The position numbers were made by a program, and so were the translations under genes. The notes below the pieces were generated by a model that was not told the DNA's origin, searched no databases, and worked only from the letters and a program-made list of their open reading frames with translations. Shown piece after piece: positions 7,120 to 59,511 of a DNA stretch of 64,000 bases. Numbering within the stretch: position 1 is the stretch's first letter; every line of letters starts with the position of its first letter. The DNA comes from Amedibacterium intestinale. GTDB taxonomy: Bacteria > Bacillota_I > Bacilli_A > Erysipelotrichales > Erysipelotrichaceae. The DNA lies in contig NZ_AP019711.1 in the NCBI RefSeq assembly GCF_010537335.1, forward strand, positions 2,418,001 to 2,482,000. The letters are read 5' to 3'.

Positions 7120-8703
7120 CTATTGTTCATTCGCCATATAATCCCATACAATAGTAGGATCATCATTTACTTTAGGACTGTTTTTATATAAATCATTCAA
7201 ATCAAAACTAAAGTTTTTCATTTCCAGCTGATGACTTGCGCCATCATATGCATTTAATATCCATTGTACTTCTTCCTGATTGTATAAATATACATCGAAT
7301 TTTTGTTCATTTCCCTGACTGGCAGTGTATTGATAACTGTAAGTTCCATTGTCACTGGAAATAGAGCTGATGGTCCATGGTTTTATATTTTCCAGCTCAT
7401 GTGATACAAATTTTGTAATTTGGGAAGTTGGCATATTGGTCATAACATAATTTGGAGCGATTTCCATTAATTCGTTAAAGGAAGTTAGTGCGGTTGCAGG
7501 ATTCATTAATTTATTGATAATTGCTTTAATGATGCGCTGCTGTGCACGTTCTCTTCCTGGATTATCATAGCCTGGTGTTTTTCGATGTCGAGAATATGCT
7601 AGCGCCTGTTTCCCATTTAATGTTTGTTCTCCTTTGTCAAGGCAAATCAAATCTTCTTCTTTAAAGCTTCTGTTTTCATCTTGCTCACAGAAACTAATTT
7701 CCACATCTACATCAATGCCACCTAGAGCATCTACGATTTCAATGAGAGAATTAAAACTGATGCGGGCATAGTAATCAATAGGAATTTGAAAGAAGTTTTC
7801 AAGAGATGCTATACTTGTGTCAATTCCATATAAACCAGTATGTGTAAATTTATCATTTAAATTATTGACTGCAGTGTTAGGCATATAGCCATCTCTTGGC
7901 AAAGAAACCATATCAATATGGTTTGCTCGTGGATTTACGATTAAGATGATATTTGTATCTGTTCTTGTCTGCTGATCTGGAGAACCCATACTATCTAAGC
8001 CACTCACATAGACGGTGAAAGTTTCTTTTGTGATGTCTTTTTGAACTTTAGTTTCTTTGATTTCTCGCTCATAGGTTTCAAGGATAGTGAGCTTGTCTTG
8101 TAATCCTTCCTGATTAGCACAAGCAATATTATAATAAGTGTCAGATATTGCGACAGCTTGAATCGTTTTATTTTCAAGGTCTGTAAACAGGGTTGTATAG
8201 TCCAGTGCTTCTGTTTCACTATAAGTAGAAATATCTTTTCTTAGCTCTTCTTTCATGAAAGAGGCATTGTCTACATCACTTCCATTTTGAAAACCAATTG
8301 CAGAATTTTGTAAATCATTAATATTATTAAATTTATTTTCTTTTAATGATACGATATATAATTTGTTCTTTTTAGAAATTGTACCGTCCTTATTCATAGT
8401 TGTACTGGATACCTTGTTTAAAGTTTGATGCGATTTATGCAGCAGATAGCCACTAAAACCAAGCAGAACACAAAGAAGAAGTACAAAGCATCTTCGAAGA
8501 ATACGAACCCATAAAGGCATTTTTTTAAATGATAAAAGTAAAAAAATAAGCCATAAAACACCAATTAGTGCTGCTCCAATCGTAATCCATTTTTGAGGAA
8601 GAAGTCCAAAAAGATAGGCAACATAAAAGGCAGCAATGCCAATTCCAAGCATAAGAAGCATTAAAATCATATCTATAATATAAAATCGTTTTTCTTTTCT
8701 CAT
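7120..8703 (-). CDS. LytR-CpsA-Psr (LCP) family cell-wall glycopolymer transferase, copy 1
   Basis: LCP proteins transfer undecaprenyl-linked glycopolymers (teichoic acids or capsule) to peptidoglycan outside the membrane. The N-terminus has about three membrane helices (residues 8-85). Residues about 105-235 form an extra domain discussed under findings, and the LCP core follows with NPRANHIDMVSLPRDGY, DALGGIDVDV, LNGKQALAYSRHR and PGRERAQQR, including the conserved Asp and Arg residues. The ATG at 8703 is preferred over a GTG at 8709 because GGAG lies 7 bp before it. A close paralogue lies immediately upstream (9029-10612). Confidence 0.92.
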   Translation of the reverse strand: MRKEKRFYIIDMILMLLMLGIGIAAFYVAYLFGLLPQKWITIGAALIGVLWLIFLLLSFKKMPLWVRILRRCFVLLLCVLLGFSGYLLHKSHQTLNKVSSTTMNKDGTISKKNKLYIVSLKENKFNNINDLQNSAIGFQNGSDVDNASFMKEELRKDISTYSETEALDYTTLFTDLENKTIQAVAISDTYYNIACANQEGLQDKLTILETYEREIKETKVQKDITKETFTVYVSGLDSMGSPDQQTRTDTNIILIVNPRANHIDMVSLPRDGYMPNTAVNNLNDKFTHTGLYGIDTSIASLENFFQIPIDYYARISFNSLIEIVDALGGIDVDVEISFCEQDENRSFKEEDLICLDKGEQTLNGKQALAYSRHRKTPGYDNPGRERAQQRIIKAIINKLMNPATALTSFNELMEIAPNYVMTNMPTSQITKFVSHELENIKPWTISSISSDNGTYSYQYTASQGNEQKFDVYLYNQEEVQWILNAYDGASHQLEMKNFSFDLNDLYKNSPKVNDDPTIVWDYMANEQ

Positions 8704-8796
8704 ATACACACTCCATTTATAAATTATATTTATTATAAACTATTTAAATCTATTTATATATGGCTATTTTATGAAAATTCGTTAAGAAAAGAAAAA

Positions 8797-8818
8797 AGGA
8801 ATGTAGGTTTACATTCCT
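8797..8818 (-). terminator. Terminator hairpin, outer copy, after LCP copy 2
   Basis: On the minus strand GGAATGTA/TACATTCC forms an 8-bp stem followed by TTTTTTC. It is the distal copy of a hairpin that also occurs at 9009-9030. The two flank the 190-bp repeat and differ at one loop base. Confidence 0.75.
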
Positions 8819-9008
8819 CAGGTTGTTGACAAACTATATATTTTGAAAATATATAAAACCAATTTAAAAAAAGTGGTAGAAAGATTCCTTTTACTAGGTG
8901 ATTTTTGGTAAATGATAGCTTAAAATCACCTGTTTTTTATACAAAAGTGGGGATAAAAAAAGACCGAATGACAAAGTCTGCTCAAAGAGCGACTTTGTCA
9001 ACGGTCTG
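8819..9008. mobile_element. 190-bp terminator-targeting repeat, copy A
   Basis: Non-coding element with imperfect terminal inverted repeats. The left end is CAG, three variable bases, then GTTGACAAA; the right end is its near reverse complement. It contains AGGTGATTTT...AAAATCACCT followed by T6 on the plus strand. It also contains a long hairpin, GACCG...GACAAAGTC/GACTTTGTC...CGGTC, preceded by A7, so a terminator on the minus strand. It is flanked by a 22-bp direct duplication of a terminator hairpin (8797-8818 and 9009-9030). The sequence at 57716-57905 is the same as far as can be read. Confidence 0.8.
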
Positions 9009-9030
9009 AGGAATGTAGGGTTACATTCCT
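9009..9030 (-). repeat. Duplicated terminator hairpin, inner copy
   Basis: Same stem as at 8797-8818 (GGAATGTA/TACATTCC) but without a T-tract. It begins within the TAG stop codon of LCP copy 2. The pair is interpreted as a target duplication made when the 190-bp element inserted. Confidence 0.75.
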
Positions 9031-10612
9031 AGTATTGCGGTGTTATTGCCATTGTATCCCAAACAATGTTTGGATCATCATTTATATTTGATGTATTTCC
9101 ATCTATGGTATTGATATTAAATTGGAAATTTTTCATTTCTAATGGATGCAGGGCACTTTCATAAGCATCATGTACAGCTTGTACATCTTCTTTTGAAAAT
9201 AAATAGACACTGGAAGTACCTTCTTCCTTTGGTATACTGGCAGTAAAGCGAGAATCATTAACACCATTGTCAGTTGATATAGAAGAAATTGTCCATGGCT
9301 GTGGATTGTTTAACTCTGAAGATATAAATTTTGCGATTTGAGAGGCTGGCATATCGGTAAGTACATAGTCTGGGGCAATATCCAGCAGACTATTTACATA
9401 GGTTAATGCATTAGGACTTATTAATTTATCAATAATAGCATTAATGATGCGACGCTGTGCACGCTCTCTTCCTGGATTATCATAGCCAGGTGTTTTTCGA
9501 TGTCGAGAATATGCTAGCGCCTGTTTTCCATTCAGTGTCTGTTCCCCTTTTTCAAGACAAATCAAATCTTCTTTTTTAAAACTTCTGTTTTCATCCTGTT
9601 CACAGAAACTGATTTCTACATCTACATCAATACCGTTCATTGCATCTACGATTTCAATTAATGAATTAAAACTTACACGTGCATAATAATCAATAGGAAT
9701 ACCAAAAAAGTTTTCAATAGAGGAAACACTTGCACTGATTCCATACATTCCTGTATGTGCCAGCTTATCATTTTCATTATGCAAAGCTGTATTTGGAATG
9801 TAGCCATCTCTTGGCAAAGACACCATATCAATATGATTAGCTCTTGGATTCACAATAAGTAAAATATTGGTATCGCTTCTGTTTTGCTGATCAGGAGAAC
9901 CCATATTGTCTAAACCGCTTATATACACAACAAAGGGTTCTTTGGAAATATCTTTTTGTTTCTTTTCTGTTTTTAGATTTTTCTTTTTAAGAGTCGCAAT
10001 CGTTTTAATATTATCTTCAAATCCATCAATATTGTTTTTAGACATATCGTAATAATTATCACTAATAGCTAAAGCATCTATATTTCCTATCATCATTTGT
10101 GAAATCAATGTTGTATAATCAAGTTCTTCTACCATTTGAATATCTGCTGATTTTTTGATTTCGGTTTTAGCGTATTCACTGTTTTCTATATCGCTTCCTT
10201 TTTGGAAACCAACACGATGAGAAGCAAGTTCATCCAATGACGTGATAGAGCTGTTTTTAGAGGTAATGATCTTGATTTCTGTATATTCTTTTTCTTCCAT
10301 CTGAAACATCTGGTTTAATGTCTGTTTTGATTTTTGAAGAAAGAAGGCAGGAATACACAGAAGCACACATAAAACCAGGATAAAGATTCGTTTGGTTATG
10401 ATGATCCATCGCTTTGTCTTTCGAAGACTAAGAAGAAATAATGTGATATAAATCATCAGGAAAAAGATAACCCCTATAAGAATCCATTTTTTGGGAAGAA
10501 TGGAAAACGTCAGTGCATTATATAGCATATAAATTCCAACCAGTAATAAAATAAATAAAAAGATAAGATCAATGGTTCTGGTATAGTAACGTTTTGGTTT
10601 TTTATTTGTCAT
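9029..10612 (-). CDS. LytR-CpsA-Psr (LCP) family cell-wall glycopolymer transferase, copy 2
   Basis: Paralogue of the gene at 7120-8703 with the same architecture: N-terminal membrane helices, an extra extracytoplasmic domain (about residues 110-235, VGFQKGSDIENS) and the LCP core (MVSLPRDGYIPN, DAMNGIDVDV, QALAYSRHRKTPGYDNPGRERAQ). The cores of the two proteins are almost identical while the first 230 residues differ widely. Both genes read in the same direction. This one has its own promoter (10649-10677), and a terminator-targeting repeat now lies in its 3' terminator. AAGAGTTG-type purine-rich sequence precedes the ATG. Confidence 0.92.
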   Translation of the reverse strand: MTNKKPKRYYTRTIDLIFLFILLLVGIYMLYNALTFSILPKKWILIGVIFFLMIYITLFLLSLRKTKRWIIITKRIFILVLCVLLCIPAFFLQKSKQTLNQMFQMEEKEYTEIKIITSKNSSITSLDELASHRVGFQKGSDIENSEYAKTEIKKSADIQMVEELDYTTLISQMMIGNIDALAISDNYYDMSKNNIDGFEDNIKTIATLKKKNLKTEKKQKDISKEPFVVYISGLDNMGSPDQQNRSDTNILLIVNPRANHIDMVSLPRDGYIPNTALHNENDKLAHTGMYGISASVSSIENFFGIPIDYYARVSFNSLIEIVDAMNGIDVDVEISFCEQDENRSFKKEDLICLEKGEQTLNGKQALAYSRHRKTPGYDNPGRERAQRRIINAIIDKLISPNALTYVNSLLDIAPDYVLTDMPASQIAKFISSELNNPQPWTISSISTDNGVNDSRFTASIPKEEGTSSVYLFSKEDVQAVHDAYESALHPLEMKNFQFNINTIDGNTSNINDDPNIVWDTMAITPQY

Positions 10613-19909: not shown

Positions 19910-21238
19910 ATGAAAAAGAATGAACATGTGAATGGAATATGCTGCGGTTACACCAAAGATGGTCATGGGGTCGTAAAAATTGATGGATTTCCATTGTTTG
20001 TGAAAGGCATGCTGGAAAATGAAGAAGGTGAACTGGTCATAACTATGGTAAAGAAAAGCTATGGTTATGCTCGTTTATTAAACTTACATAAAACAAGTGC
20101 AGAACGTGTAAAACCTGTTTGTCCACTCGCAAAACAATGCGGAGGATGTCAGCTGCAGCATATGTCATATAAAGAGCAGCTGCGTTATAAAAAACAGAAA
20201 GTACAGGATGTTATCGATCGTATTGCGAAACTGGATTTAAAAGTAGAAGATGTTTTGGGAATGGAACATCAGTTATACTATCGTAACAAAGGACAGATTC
20301 CTGTTGGATTAAAAAATAATATTGTACAGACTGGTTTTTATCGTATCAATTCAAATGAAATTATTGATATGAATACCTGCTTGATTCAAAGTGAACGTAT
20401 CAATACCGTTCTTGCTGTTATGAAAGAGTTATTAGTTAGTTATGAAAATGCATCCGTTTTTCGTCATTTGTTAATTAAAGATGGATTTCATACAGGAGAA
20501 GTAATGGTTGTATGGATTACTCGCAAGAAAAACTTTCCACATAAAGAAGATATGGTAAAAGAACTGGTAGATCGTTTGCCATTTGTTAAAAGTATTGTAT
20601 TGAATTTAAATACAAGAGAAGATAATGTTATTTTAGGTAAGGAAGAAGAAGTGTTATATGGGCAATCCTTTATTACAGATACGATTCATGGTTTAAAATT
20701 CCATATTTCTTCTAAATCCTTTTATCAGGTAAATCCTGTTCAAACAGAAGTACTATATGGAAAAGCTTTAGAATTCTGTGAAATAAAAGGAAATGAAACG
20801 ATATTGGATATGTATTGTGGTGTAGGAACAATCAGTATGTTTTTAGCTCAGAAAGCTAAAAAAGTGATTGGAATTGAAATTGTGGAGCAGGCAATAAAAA
20901 ATGCGAAAGAAAATGCATTAAACAATGGCATTTCTAATATTGAGTTTGTATGCAGCGATGCGGCTTCTTATGCGAAAAAATTAAGTGAAGAAAATATGAA
21001 ACCAGATATTATTGTGGTTGATCCTCCAAGAAAAGGATGTGATCAGATAACACTTGACAGTATTGTGAAAATGTCACCACAAAGAATTGTTTATGTATCT
21101 TGTGATCCAGCTACACTGGCAAGAGATCTTCGTATTTTAGAAGATAGTGGATATCATTGTATAAAGGTACAGCCTGTTGATATGTTCCCATTTAGTCACC
21201 ACATAGAAAATGTAGCACAGCTTATAAAAAACAAATAA
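19910..21238 (+). CDS. rlmD: 23S rRNA (uracil-5-)-methyltransferase RlmD/RumA
   Basis: SAM-dependent enzyme that makes m5U in 23S rRNA. Features in order: a TRAM-like N-terminus, the iron-sulfur ligand set CPLAKQCGGC with a fourth Cys in MNTCLIQ, the SAM site LDMYCGVGTISMFLA, DPPRKGCD, and the catalytic Cys in VYVSCDPATLARDL. The end is MFPFSHHIENVAQLIKNK. The 3' end and its terminator are partly duplicated 1.5 kb downstream. The 3' end of this gene is a known integration site for mobile elements in Firmicutes. Confidence 0.94.
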   Translation: MKKNEHVNGICCGYTKDGHGVVKIDGFPLFVKGMLENEEGELVITMVKKSYGYARLLNLHKTSAERVKPVCPLAKQCGGCQLQHMSYKEQLRYKKQKVQDVIDRIAKLDLKVEDVLGMEHQLYYRNKGQIPVGLKNNIVQTGFYRINSNEIIDMNTCLIQSERINTVLAVMKELLVSYENASVFRHLLIKDGFHTGEVMVVWITRKKNFPHKEDMVKELVDRLPFVKSIVLNLNTREDNVILGKEEEVLYGQSFITDTIHGLKFHISSKSFYQVNPVQTEVLYGKALEFCEIKGNETILDMYCGVGTISMFLAQKAKKVIGIEIVEQAIKNAKENALNNGISNIEFVCSDAASYAKKLSEENMKPDIIVVDPPRKGCDQITLDSIVKMSPQRIVYVSCDPATLARDLRILEDSGYHCIKVQPVDMFPFSHHIENVAQLIKNK

Positions 21239-21378
21239 CCTGATAAATAAAGCGCTTTAGACACTTTTCCATAGTCTAATTTTAAACTCTAGAAAATGAG
21301 ATAACTGATAATTTTGCCTGATTTTAGAAATAAGTCAGGCTTTTTTATGAAATCAGCAGTAATAAGTGTTCGTGAAAA
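21200..21378 (+). repeat. Direct repeat 1: rlmD 3' end plus downstream region
   Basis: The last 39 bp of rlmD, its terminator and about 35 further bases to GTGTTCGTGAAAA recur with roughly three-quarters identity at 22682-22873. Together they bracket the RhuM-like gene. The remainder of the 310-bp gap before that gene (21379-21548) is AT-rich with no further structure that I can see. Confidence 0.75.
21316..21346 (+). terminator. Rho-independent terminator of rlmD
   Basis: GCCTGA...TCAGGC stem followed by T6. Confidence 0.8.
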
Positions 21379-22639: not shown

Positions 22640-22720
22640 GGATTATCATGCAAAATCAATATCTCTTTTGCGCATTCGAGTCACATAGAAAATGTAGTAT
22701 AGCTTGTAAAAAACAATTAA
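22640..22720 (+). pseudogene. Remnant of a second rlmD 3' end
   Basis: Conceptual translation gives FAHSSHIENVV, a stop, then LVKNN and a stop, matching the C-terminus of RlmD (FSHHIENVAQLIKNK). No upstream part of the gene is present. The divergence from the intact gene next door suggests a foreign copy brought in by an integrating element, as commonly seen at attachment sites, not a recent duplication. Confidence 0.65.
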
Positions 22721-22873
22721 CCTGATAAATAAAGCGTTTTAGACAATTTTCCATAGTCTGATTTTGAACTCCAGAAAAATGGGATACAACTGGTAATAAT
22801 TGATTATTTTACCTGATTTTCACGAAGTCAGGCTTTTTTTGATGGAAAACAAAGAAAAAGGTGTTCGTGAAAA
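22682..22873 (+). repeat. Direct repeat 2: counterpart of 21200-21378
   Basis: Shares CACATAGAAAATGTAG, CCTGATAAATAAAGCG, CCATAGTCT, a TCAGGC terminator and GTGTTCGTGAAAA in the same order with repeat 1. Contains its own terminator (CCTGA...TCAGG then T7, 22812-22840). Likely the far attachment site (attR-like) of an old insertion. Confidence 0.75.
22812..22840 (+). terminator. Terminator in the second rlmD 3' end copy
   Basis: CCTGA/TCAGG stem followed by C and seven T. It is the counterpart of the rlmD terminator at 21316-21346 and would stop RhuM transcripts. Confidence 0.7.
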
Positions 22874-55925: not shown

Positions 55926-55931
55926 AAATGT

Positions 55932-55966
55932 CCGTAAGTATCTTTATGATATTTACGGCTTTTTTC
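55932..55966 (+). terminator. Rho-independent terminator after nrdG
   Basis: CCGTAA pairs with TTACGG, extended by TAT/ATA, followed by C and T6. Confidence 0.85.
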
Positions 55967-56023
55967 TGTTCAAGAAATAGGGAATGTGATATAGTAGAGC
56001 ATATAAGAAAAGAGGAACAATTT

Positions 56024-57685
56024 ATGAAAAAATATAGTCTATATCTTATACCGTTGTATATTTTATATCTTGGTATTTATTATTATGTTGCATTGCCTCC
56101 TTTCAACTGGCATGCACCTGAATTTTGGAGGTTTTTGATTTTTGGATTTGGACCTTTACTGATAATCTTGCTGTTATCTAGCTTAACGATTCGCGGGATT
56201 CAGGGGGCAAGAGATTTTGGTTCTATGTTTCATAGAAATGTAGTAAATGCTGGTGAGGATAATAAAAAATGGAAAACAATTACAAGGGTATGCCTTGTGG
56301 CAATCGCAGTTATCATTCTTTTTCCATGTGTTATGTATGGAATAAATGTAAAAGTTTTTCATGCGAAAGAATATGCAAATCGTATTAATATAAAAAATGT
56401 TGAGTTTAGTGAAGTACCCGAAGTAGATTTTACAAAAACCCCAATCATTGATAGAGATAGTTCTATTCGTTTAGGGGATAAAGTTATGGGAAATATGACA
56501 GAGTGGGTATCACAGTTTGATGTAAGTCAGGAATATACGCAAATATCTTATAAAGATAGCGTATATCGTGTAACACCATTGACATATAATGGAATTATCA
56601 AATACTTTAAAAATAGAGGGAATGGGATTCCTGCATATATAACTGTTGACAGTACAAATGGAAAAACAGAACTTGTAAAATTAAAAGATTTAGGTTTAGG
56701 TGGAATGAAATATGTACCATCCGCTATGTTTAATGAAAATTTAATGCGTAAGATTCGTTTCCAGCATCCTACAGAAATCTTTGGTTCTCCTTCTTTTGAA
56801 ATTGATGAACAAGGGCATCCCTGGTATATTTGTTCAACGTATACATATAAAGGTGTAGGAGCTAAAAAACAGGTAACAGGAGCTATTTTCCTTGATCCTA
56901 TTACAGGAGAAAGTACGAAGTATGAAGCTGGAAATATTCCTTCCTGGGCTGATCGTGTTTTCCCTGAATCTCTGCTTGTACAGGAACTTGATGACAATGG
57001 AAGTTTACAGGATGGATTTATTAACTCTGTATTTGGACAAAAAGGGGTTACTGTAACTTCTGAAGGATATAATTATTTAGAAAAAGATGGAGATATCTGG
57101 TTATATTCTGGAATTACTTCTGTAAACTCTGATGAATCCAATCTTGGATTTGTATTAGTTAATATGCGTACTCATGAAGCAATGAAAATCGCAACTGCGG
57201 GAGCAAATGAAACAAGTGCTATGAAGAGTGCAGAAGCAGAAGTAAAAAATTATGGTTATCAGTCTACATTCCCACTGTTAATTAATTTAAATGGTAATCC
57301 AGTCTATTTAATGTCTTTGAAGGATAATGGATTGATTAAAATGTATGCAATGGTATCTGCGATTGATTATCAGAAAGTCGCAACGATTAGCAGTGATGAA
57401 AGCTTTGAGTCTTTAGCAAAATCCATGTTAAACGTATTAGGTTCTTCCAATGAAAACATAAATCCAGATCAGTTAAAAGAAGCGGACATTACAGTTTCTG
57501 CTGTGGAAAAGGTAAATCTGGAAGGTACAACATGGTATTATATTGAAAGTGAATCCAAGGATATTTTTAAAGTAGCTTTCCAAAGTCGTTACGAAGATAC
57601 TTTGGTTTTCTTGAAGAAAGGGGATGTTCTTCATATATCTTATGTGGATAATGAAGGTATCAAGCAAATTAAAGGAATTGAATAA
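56024..57685 (+). CDS. Large membrane protein of unknown function
   Basis: I do not recognise this family. Three membrane helices occupy the first 115 residues (YLIPLYILYLGIYYYVALP, FLIFGFGPLLIILLLSS and VCLVAIAVIILFPCVMYG). About 440 residues outside the membrane follow, with FHAKEYANRINIKNVEFSEV, GHPWYICSTYTYKGVGAKK, GAIFLDPITGESTKYEAG and ADRVFPESLLV, suggesting repeated beta units. The ATG at 56024 follows AGAGGAAC; the frame is open further upstream across the nrdG terminator. The gene is monocistronic, and its own terminator hairpin has been duplicated by the 190-bp repeat. Confidence 0.72.
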   Translation: MKKYSLYLIPLYILYLGIYYYVALPPFNWHAPEFWRFLIFGFGPLLIILLLSSLTIRGIQGARDFGSMFHRNVVNAGEDNKKWKTITRVCLVAIAVIILFPCVMYGINVKVFHAKEYANRINIKNVEFSEVPEVDFTKTPIIDRDSSIRLGDKVMGNMTEWVSQFDVSQEYTQISYKDSVYRVTPLTYNGIIKYFKNRGNGIPAYITVDSTNGKTELVKLKDLGLGGMKYVPSAMFNENLMRKIRFQHPTEIFGSPSFEIDEQGHPWYICSTYTYKGVGAKKQVTGAIFLDPITGESTKYEAGNIPSWADRVFPESLLVQELDDNGSLQDGFINSVFGQKGVTVTSEGYNYLEKDGDIWLYSGITSVNSDESNLGFVLVNMRTHEAMKIATAGANETSAMKSAEAEVKNYGYQSTFPLLINLNGNPVYLMSLKDNGLIKMYAMVSAIDYQKVATISSDESFESLAKSMLNVLGSSNENINPDQLKEADITVSAVEKVNLEGTTWYYIESESKDIFKVAFQSRYEDTLVFLKKGDVLHISYVDNEGIKQIKGIE

Positions 57686-57692
57686 GAACAAA

Positions 57693-57715
57693 AGCATATG
57701 GGTTTTCCATATGTT
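57693..57715 (+). repeat. Duplicated terminator hairpin, inner copy (locus B)
   Basis: CATATGG...CCATATG stem without its T-tract, 7 bp after the stop codon. Identical to 57906-57928 over 23 bp. Confidence 0.8.
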
Positions 57716-57905
57716 CAGGTTGTTGACAAACTATATATTTTGAAAATATATAAAACCAATTTAAAAAAAGTGGTAGAAAGATTCCTTTTACTAGGTGATT
57801 TTTGGTAAATGATAGCTTAAAATCACCTGTTTTTTATACAAAAGTGGGGATAAAAAAAGACCGAATGACAAAGTCTGCTCAAAGAGCGACTTTGTCAACG
57901 GTCTG
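57716..57905. mobile_element. 190-bp terminator-targeting repeat, copy B
   Basis: Same sequence as 8819-9008 as far as can be read, with the same ends (CAGGTTGTTGACAAA and TTTGTCAACGGTCTG). Here the element runs in the direction of the upstream gene; in copy A it runs against it. Both flanks are the same 23-bp terminator hairpin. Confidence 0.85.
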
Positions 57906-57932
57906 AGCATATGGGTTTTCCATATGTTTTTT
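57906..57932 (+). terminator. Rho-independent terminator, outer copy (locus B)
   Basis: CATATGG-GTTT-TCCATATG stem followed by T6. It is the functional copy of the hairpin duplicated at 57693-57715. Confidence 0.85.
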
Positions 57933-58032
57933 GCATGTTTGTAAAATAATGGAAGTGTATGTTATAAAAAGCATAGAAATATGATATGATTAATAATATG
58001 AGTCAAATCATATAAACGTCGAGGTGAATATC

Positions 58033-59511
58033 ATGGGAAAAAAGGTTGTCAAATATAAACTGGTAAGACATCGCTGGCCAGATGAAATACAGGCAGATCG
58101 AAAAAGAAAAATGCGCAAGGCAATGGTAATAGCGATTTGTTTTGTTTGTTTTTTTGGAGGGTTTGGTGTTAATGAATTATTGAATAAACAACGTGGTTTA
58201 AGTGATAAGACATTTGCGAAGTTTTCTGAAATTTATAATATCATGAGCAAGGAATTTTACTTTGGAAAGGATAAGGAAGATTTTGACGATGCTTTATTGA
58301 GTGGAGCGATTGAGGGCATGGTCAATGCCGGAGAAGATGTACATACGATGTATTTAGATGCACAGCAGTCAAATACGTTTACAAGTTCCATGGAAGGAAG
58401 TTTTGTAGGGATTGGTGTACAGTATTATGAGGAAAAAGAAGATTCTTTTCGAGTTACAAGAGTCTTAAATGACTCTCCTGCAGAAAAAGCAGGATTACAA
58501 AAAGGTGATCAGATTTATCGTATTGGAAATACAGTATGTAAAGATATGGATGCGGATAAAGTAAGAGAACTTATTTTAGGAGAAGCAGGATCAAGTGTAG
58601 AGATAGAAGTGCTTCGTGATGGAAAACATTTGGTATATGATTTAGAACGTCAAAAAGTAAATGATTCTGTTTATCATGAAATCTATGATGAGTATGCACT
58701 TTTGGAAATCAGCAGTTTTTCTGAAACTGTAGGAGATTCTACAGGAAAGGCATTGGAAAAAATCAAGCAGGCAGATGCGAAAAAACTGATTTTAGATTTA
58801 AGAAACAATGGAGGAGGATATTTACAGTCTGCACAGCAGATTGCAAGTTATCTTCTAGGGGAAGATGTCGTGATTTTTAAAGAGAAAAATCGTGATGGAT
58901 CTATTGATGACTATAAAACAATTTCAAAAGTAAAACAGTACACATTTGATAAAATTATACTTCTTGTGAATGAAGATACTGCCAGCGCTGCAGAAGTGTT
59001 AACAGCTGCATTAAAAGAGAACTTAGATAATGTGACAATCGTTGGTACAAATACGTATGGAAAGGGTACCGTTCAGTATCCATTGGTATTCTCTGATGGA
59101 AGTATGTTGAAATACACAACAGCGGAATGGATAAGTTCAAAAGGAAAAGAAATTAATGGTGTAGGAATCAAGCCGGATGTAGAAGTAAAACTTGATCCTG
59201 CTTTTACAACAGGGGCTCCAAAATTAAAAGATGGGGAAAGTTATGCACCAGACAGTGTAAATCCTGCAGCACAAAGTGTACAAGTGTATTTGAAATTTTT
59301 AGGATATGAGGTTGATCGTAGTGATGCATATTTCTCTAAACAAAGTGGAGAAGCATTAAAACAATTCCAGAAAGATCATGGTATGAAAGCGGATGGAAAT
59401 ATCGATAGTGAGGTTATCGATGTTCTTCTTTCAACAATATCAGAAGAATGGAATACAAATTTAGAGAAAAATGATGTACAGATGAAAAAAGCGATAGAAC
59501 TTGTAAAGTAA
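58033..59511 (+). CDS. S41-family carboxyl-terminal processing protease (CtpA/CtpB-like)
   Basis: Membrane-anchored serine protease acting outside the membrane. N-terminal helix (residues about 29-48), PDZ domain (FVGIGVQYYEEKEDS...GLQKGDQIYRIGN), S41 catalytic core with the Ser in NEDTASAAEVLTAAL and the Lys in NTYGKGTVQYP, then a C-terminal peptidoglycan-binding domain (VQVYLKFLGYEV...LKQFQKDHGMKADG). The domain order is that of CtpA/CtpB of Bacillus. The ATG at 58033 lies 5 bp after GAGGTGA; an in-frame GTG at 58024 is inside that site. Confidence 0.93.
   Translation: MGKKVVKYKLVRHRWPDEIQADRKRKMRKAMVIAICFVCFFGGFGVNELLNKQRGLSDKTFAKFSEIYNIMSKEFYFGKDKEDFDDALLSGAIEGMVNAGEDVHTMYLDAQQSNTFTSSMEGSFVGIGVQYYEEKEDSFRVTRVLNDSPAEKAGLQKGDQIYRIGNTVCKDMDADKVRELILGEAGSSVEIEVLRDGKHLVYDLERQKVNDSVYHEIYDEYALLEISSFSETVGDSTGKALEKIKQADAKKLILDLRNNGGGYLQSAQQIASYLLGEDVVIFKEKNRDGSIDDYKTISKVKQYTFDKIILLVNEDTASAAEVLTAALKENLDNVTIVGTNTYGKGTVQYPLVFSDGSMLKYTTAEWISSKGKEINGVGIKPDVEVKLDPAFTTGAPKLKDGESYAPDSVNPAAQSVQVYLKFLGYEVDRSDAYFSKQSGEALKQFQKDHGMKADGNIDSEVIDVLLSTISEEWNTNLEKNDVQMKKAIELVK

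Follow-up and report, generated by a model that had tools for sequence, protein, structure and literature searches.

How a non-coding element of 190 bp comes to lie between two complete copies of one hairpin is the question raised by positions 57693-57932 of the window, a stretch of 64,000 nucleotides of the Amedibacterium intestinale genome. Most DDE transposons generate a short target duplication of constant length that is fixed by the enzyme. At this locus, here called copy B, the sequence-only reading had described a 23-bp hairpin perfectly duplicated around the element, with six T residues beside the outer copy only, and both descriptions hold: 57693-57715 equals 57906-57928 at 23/23 positions and the T6 occupies 57927-57932. 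The element carries imperfect terminal inverted repeats (CAGGTTGTTGACAAAC / CAGACCGTTGACAAAG), has no open reading frame of at least 60 aa inside it and lies with its flanking hairpin 7 nt beyond the stop codon of the + strand gene 55928-57685. Read on the minus strand, the left (inner) hairpin has CTTTTG after it and scores as terminator-like. The features of the locus are as follows.

55928 to 57685, + strand: gene of 585 aa upstream of copy B, whose terminator is the copy B target
57693 to 57715, no strand: left target hairpin of copy B, the whole hairpin AGCATATGGGTTTTCCATATGTT
57716 to 57905, + strand: MITE copy B, 190 bp, CAG...CTG
57906 to 57928, no strand: right (outer) target hairpin of copy B, AGCATATGGGTTTTCCATATGTT, same as the left one (23/23)
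57927 to 57932, + strand: T6 tract of the original terminator, 3' of the outer hairpin copy only
58024 to 59511, + strand: gene downstream of copy B, 495 aa, a PDZ / S41-type (C-terminal processing) protease by inspection

The window holds a second copy of the element, copy A, at the stop codon of the - strand gene 9029-10612.

8797 to 8818, no strand: left target hairpin of copy A, AGGAATGTAGGTTTACATTCCT
8819 to 9008, + strand: MITE copy A, identical to copy B
9009 to 9030, no strand: right target hairpin of copy A, AGGAATGTAGGGTTACATTCCT, differing from the left one at a single loop position

Aligned base by base, the two copies show 100% identity across 193 bp at a separation of 48,897 bp, as had been supposed, and their flanks are unrelated (AGGAATGTAGGTTTACATTCCT / AGGAATGTAGGGTTACATTCCT vs AGCATATGGGTTTTCCATATGTT). 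The reversed orientation relative to the transcribed gene is also confirmed, both elements lying on the + strand with the gene on the - strand at copy A and on the + strand at copy B. Copy A sits between two tandem paralogous genes (7120-10612) which are LytR-CpsA-Psr-like by inspection. A further repeat of the window, a 97-bp direct repeat of 91% identity at 21200-21296 and 22682-22778, includes the 3'-terminal part of a methyltransferase-like gene (19910-21238) and flanks a gene of 359 aa that is RhuM-like by inspection; this pair looks like a cassette inserted at a gene end.

The closed genome of 2,488,096 bases contains 13 copies of the element and one degenerate fragment, with 99-100% identity over the aligned part in 12 copies and 96% in the remaining one. 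The CAG...CTG ends are constant across copies and the flanking duplications, which are present at 13/13 copies and measure 19-29 nt with a single mismatch in one of them, differ from site to site. A single search with the end pattern YCAG-N3-GTTGACAAA retrieves the ends of these short elements together with seven pairs of ends spaced about 1.65 kb apart. The genome has seven full-length ISs of 1646-1649 bp whose ends read CAG-N3-GTTGACAAA as in the short element, with a frame of about 500 aa in intact copies that is broken in one copy (L101). The encoded transposase scores 415.2 bits against the IS1182 family model NF033551 (cut-off 270) and has the Pfam domains DDE_Tnp_1_6, DUF772 and DDE_Tnp_1. 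The short element is thus a MITE, being multicopy, without a frame of at least 60 aa, flanked by target duplications and bounded by terminal inverted repeats in common with an autonomous element of the same genome. MITE and IS have the outer 15 bp of their ends in common, the variable N3 excepted, and no obvious similarity was seen between their interiors. Ends, genome and target behaviour in common connect the two, and from these sequence features the IS1182-family IS of the same genome would most likely be the mobiliser of the MITE; since their likeness is limited to the outer ends, we infer trans-mobilisation by this particular IS. The right-end pattern of the MITE matches Erysipelotrichales records only among the genome contigs searched, and it has no match among the viral contigs.

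With the element defined as CAG...CTG, the genome has 20 sites (13 MITE, 7 IS). Direct repeats of 19-35 nt flank the element at all 20, of which 19 are perfect and one has a single mismatch. All 20 duplications fold into a hairpin over their full span, compared with 945/60,000 (1.6%) random windows drawn from the 64-kb window; this full-span fold test was used in place of an ungapped palindrome score, which did not separate signal from background and handled centres poorly. No two of the 20 hairpins are alike in sequence and their loops range from 3 to 7 nt. Pairing stops with the repeat, with no additional pair beyond it at 12/20 sites and at most three at 19/20, and because the repeat ends where the pairing ends, the stagger is set by the structure and by no fixed distance within a protein. 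The proposal that the flanks come from the target is borne out by hairpins that differ at every site around constant element ends, and symmetric recognition is consistent with T-tracts which lie to the right of the element at six sites, to the left at three and on both sides at eight (n=20).

Fourteen of the 20 hairpins have a long open frame whose stop codon is no more than 15 nt away, against an expectation of 5.9%, and 17 adjoin a T- or A-tract, against an expected 20%; most of the targets therefore are intrinsic terminators. A terminator is not required, because one MITE (L026, G000:C1:1368024-1368216) sits in a hairpin close to the 3' end of a frame that is regulator-like. The frame in question looks TetR-type and its C-terminus has been replaced. 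These observations support a target that is a hairpin, duplicated by the insertion, and not strictly a terminator. Part of the terminator bias could stem from selection against other insertions, as hairpins at gene ends are common, and such selection cannot account for the exact coincidence of repeat and hairpin.

In DDE transposition the two transposon 3' ends are attached to opposite target strands, and the spacing of the two joints becomes the duplication. As the duplication here equals the hairpin, the joint on either strand would fall at the hairpin's 5' foot. The best explanation, which we hold with considerable confidence, is that the MITE is moved in trans by an IS1182-family DDE transposase which joins it to an extruded hairpin at the 5' feet. 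The palindrome would be extruded either as a cruciform or as a hairpin in single-stranded DNA, the transposase would synapse both element ends on this extruded target, and each element 3' end would be joined at one 5' foot, one per strand. The stagger would then span the whole palindrome, and gap repair would copy the hairpin to both sides; the simplest model would be an extruded cruciform attacked at its base. It is the products that are directly seen, and from them we infer the extrusion, the polarity of the joints and the mobilisation of the MITE in trans. The closest competitor keeps the same MITE and transposase and has the palindrome recognised as a linear duplex, with one subunit per arm and cuts at the outer arm edges. 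Its product would look identical, and a first repeat base of A and a last repeat base of T, each at 17/20 sites, may point to a weak sequence preference. However, the arms have no sequence in common, and repeats of 19-35 nt with loops of 3-7 nt are hard to reconcile with fixed duplex contacts, which makes recognition of this kind improbable. Insertion that leaves one whole hairpin on either side suggests that the enzyme recognises DNA shape and not sequence.

Related elements were gathered from the Erysipelotrichales, from other members of the class and from plasmids of several genera (Enterococcus, Bacillus, Exiguobacterium, Staphylococcus, Cetobacterium, Vibrio, Providencia and others). Matching duplications of at least 15 nt are found at 41 of the 53 elements with both flanks readable and a hairpin is visible at nearly all of these, the whole-hairpin duplicators spanning several phyla, with examples from Enterococcus, Bacillus, Cetobacterium, Vibrio and Providencia. 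In a further 8/53 a hairpin abuts each end and the two hairpins are different. These IS copies (L156, L162, L171, L172, L177, L305, L308 and L312) are probably recombination products and hence markers of past rearrangements; copies whose flanks have recombined escaped a search for direct repeats that made no use of the end motifs, and the end-motif search picked them up. In genome G169 the hairpin to the left of one copy and that to the right of another are near-perfect reverse complements. Two ISEfa7-type copies of the same clade from E. faecium plasmids (L303 and L313) have no matching hairpin pair and a short hairpin at the right end only, and they may be rearranged or reflect another insertion mode. 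Many contigs of genome G019 stop about 70-140 bp into a related element with a different hairpin next to each (e.g. L033-L036, L194-L200), and these contig ends represent a high-copy member of the element family in that genome. Recombination between copies, which the unlike hairpins suggest, together with the identity of most MITE copies, might invite the view that the family spread mainly through gene conversion or homologous recombination among old copies. Conversion of old copies makes no new distinct duplications, yet 13/13 MITEs have a matching duplication specific to their site, so that this account is very unlikely. Of the two explanations offered earlier for the identity of copies A and B, recent movement or ongoing gene conversion, the former stands, 13 near-identical copies at 13 different hairpins being best explained by recent transposition, and the latter is unnecessary.

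The interior of the MITE contains two terminator-like hairpins, one per strand, given here with the coordinates of copy B.

57793 to 57835, + strand: internal terminator-like hairpin, AGGTGATTTT...AAAATCACCT then GTTTTTT
57852 to 57904, - strand: internal terminator-like hairpin, AGACCG..GACAAAGTC..GACTTTGTC..CGGTCT then T7

The MITE folds with a z of about -6 on either strand. In an alignment of eight copies from four genomes, one of them a diverged copy from another family of the order (G059), 8/8 have both internal T-tracts, the stems are mostly preserved in the seven closer copies and covariation is scant, with both sides changed in 1/30 pairs. The MITE may accordingly be a two-way terminator, with termination predicted on both strands, and two-way termination would make up for the parting of the inner hairpin from its T-tract. 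Given targets that are mostly terminators and a MITE with a terminator-like structure on each strand, insertion would keep neighbouring genes terminated at their 3' ends and probably do little harm. Folding on both strands and a position at gene ends are also what a structured cis-regulatory RNA or attenuator unit of many operons might display, and such a unit would not be a mobile element. This has hardly any likelihood in view of the unrelated genes, either orientation, transposon-type ends, target duplications and one copy inside a coding frame, together with the absence of any Rfam family at gathering score in the window and of the element at the same genes in relatives, at the sites examined.

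Comparison with relatives, made at the level of species, supplies the unoccupied state. The empty site with one hairpin that had been anticipated is seen at the site of one IS copy (L103) in a genome of the same genus (G001), where the junction can be aligned, the convergent genes are kept and a single hairpin, diverged in sequence, stands without the IS. At two further sites the orthologous gene of relatives is followed by a single terminator hairpin, without the element. The orthologue of the gene upstream of copy B in G001 is followed by a different single hairpin with T6, again without the element and with a different downstream gene, and gene order differs among the relatives at this orthologous gene. 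That the hairpins instead belong to the element, as a unit of hairpin, 190 bp and hairpin diverging among copies, accords with a hairpin on both sides of every copy and is practically dismissed by identical 190-bp cores between wholly different hairpins which nevertheless match left to right at each site, by flanks that differ at all 20 sites and by the one hairpin at the orthologous unoccupied IS site, which already contradicts it.

Group IIC introns likewise insert beside intrinsic terminator hairpins; they are RNA-based retroelements and give no target duplication, in which they differ from the element described here, and the window has no Rfam match. A closer parallel is IS1272/TnSha1 of the IS1182 family, for which hairpin targeting with target deletion has been described (Furi et al. 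2016, PMC4923244). The likeness includes an IS1182-family DDE transposase, insertion in both orientations and targets that are inverted repeats without fixed sequence, several of them confirmed terminators, comparable to the 20/20 full-span and mutually different hairpins found here. IS1272 is longer, with 1934-1945 bp and 548 aa compared with 1646-1649 bp and about 500 aa for the IS here, and unlike the present elements, which have a hairpin at both sides at 20/20 sites, it leaves no target duplication and removes the hairpin partly or wholly, its deletion of the target hairpin also being described by Wan et al. (2017, PMC5678879). Among three outcomes considered possible, the same authors drew duplication of the whole stem-loop through joining at the 5' feet (their Fig 13, pathway b), and pathway b stands without an example in the available text of that paper (PMC5678879). 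The RUP, BOX and SPRITE MITEs are similarly short, non-coding and multicopy with terminal inverted repeats, and SPRITE may likewise carry terminator-like structures (PMC10969869); a term search of the available text of this review returned no MITE with a whole hairpin as target duplication. The open-licence literature contained no IS1182-derived MITE and no documented whole-hairpin duplication, and ISfinder may record some. Palindrome targeting by IS1182-family elements is thus already known, and what is new, as far as the open literature was searched, is the consistent duplication of the whole hairpin, its limitation to one of two sampled clades and a MITE of that clade.

The prototype IS1182 and its relatives belong to the same curated transposase family (NF033551). 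Their ends read GGGGCTG and not CAG-N3-GTTGACAAA, and their transposases, which are about 21-25% identical to those of the CAG-end elements, form a separate clade (100/100 support) that includes the prototype. A control set of 24 such copies (L263-L269, L274-L276, L278-L286, L288-L290, L296 and L300) lacks long duplications and is nearly devoid of flanking hairpins, with one near the left end and two near the right end. Target flanks in these copies are 60% A on the left and 56% T on the right and enclose no hairpin, the pattern that an IS1272-style exchange of a terminator hairpin for the element might leave behind. ISEfa7 and other annotated IS1182-like elements with CAGACTGTAGACAAA ends share the clade and the end motif of the present elements, and close relatives in E. 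faecium and E. faecalis (L306 and L307) duplicate the whole hairpin; the ISEfa7-type copies L303 and L313 differ in their want of a matching pair, and ISEfa7 is autonomous and not a MITE.

A wider proposal, which we regard as tentative and somewhat short of an even chance, is that a widespread clade of the IS1182 family picks extruded hairpins by shape and joins at their 5' feet, that a sister clade with the prototype IS1182 and perhaps IS1272 acts with opposite polarity and deletes the target, and that the MITEs of the duplicating clade evolved as bidirectional terminators that fit this niche. A duplication as long as the hairpin that was struck makes structure-guided transposition directly testable and provides natural examples for a pathway previously found only as a drawing. 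The end motif with flanking hairpins gives a simple rule for detecting further elements of this kind, and a hairpin-seeking transposase is a possible probe for DNA structures extruded inside cells. Terminators offer safe landing sites, on which an element that duplicates its target and bears terminator-like structures of its own could spread at little cost. If the wider proposal is true, one enzyme family would have two opposite readings of one target structure.
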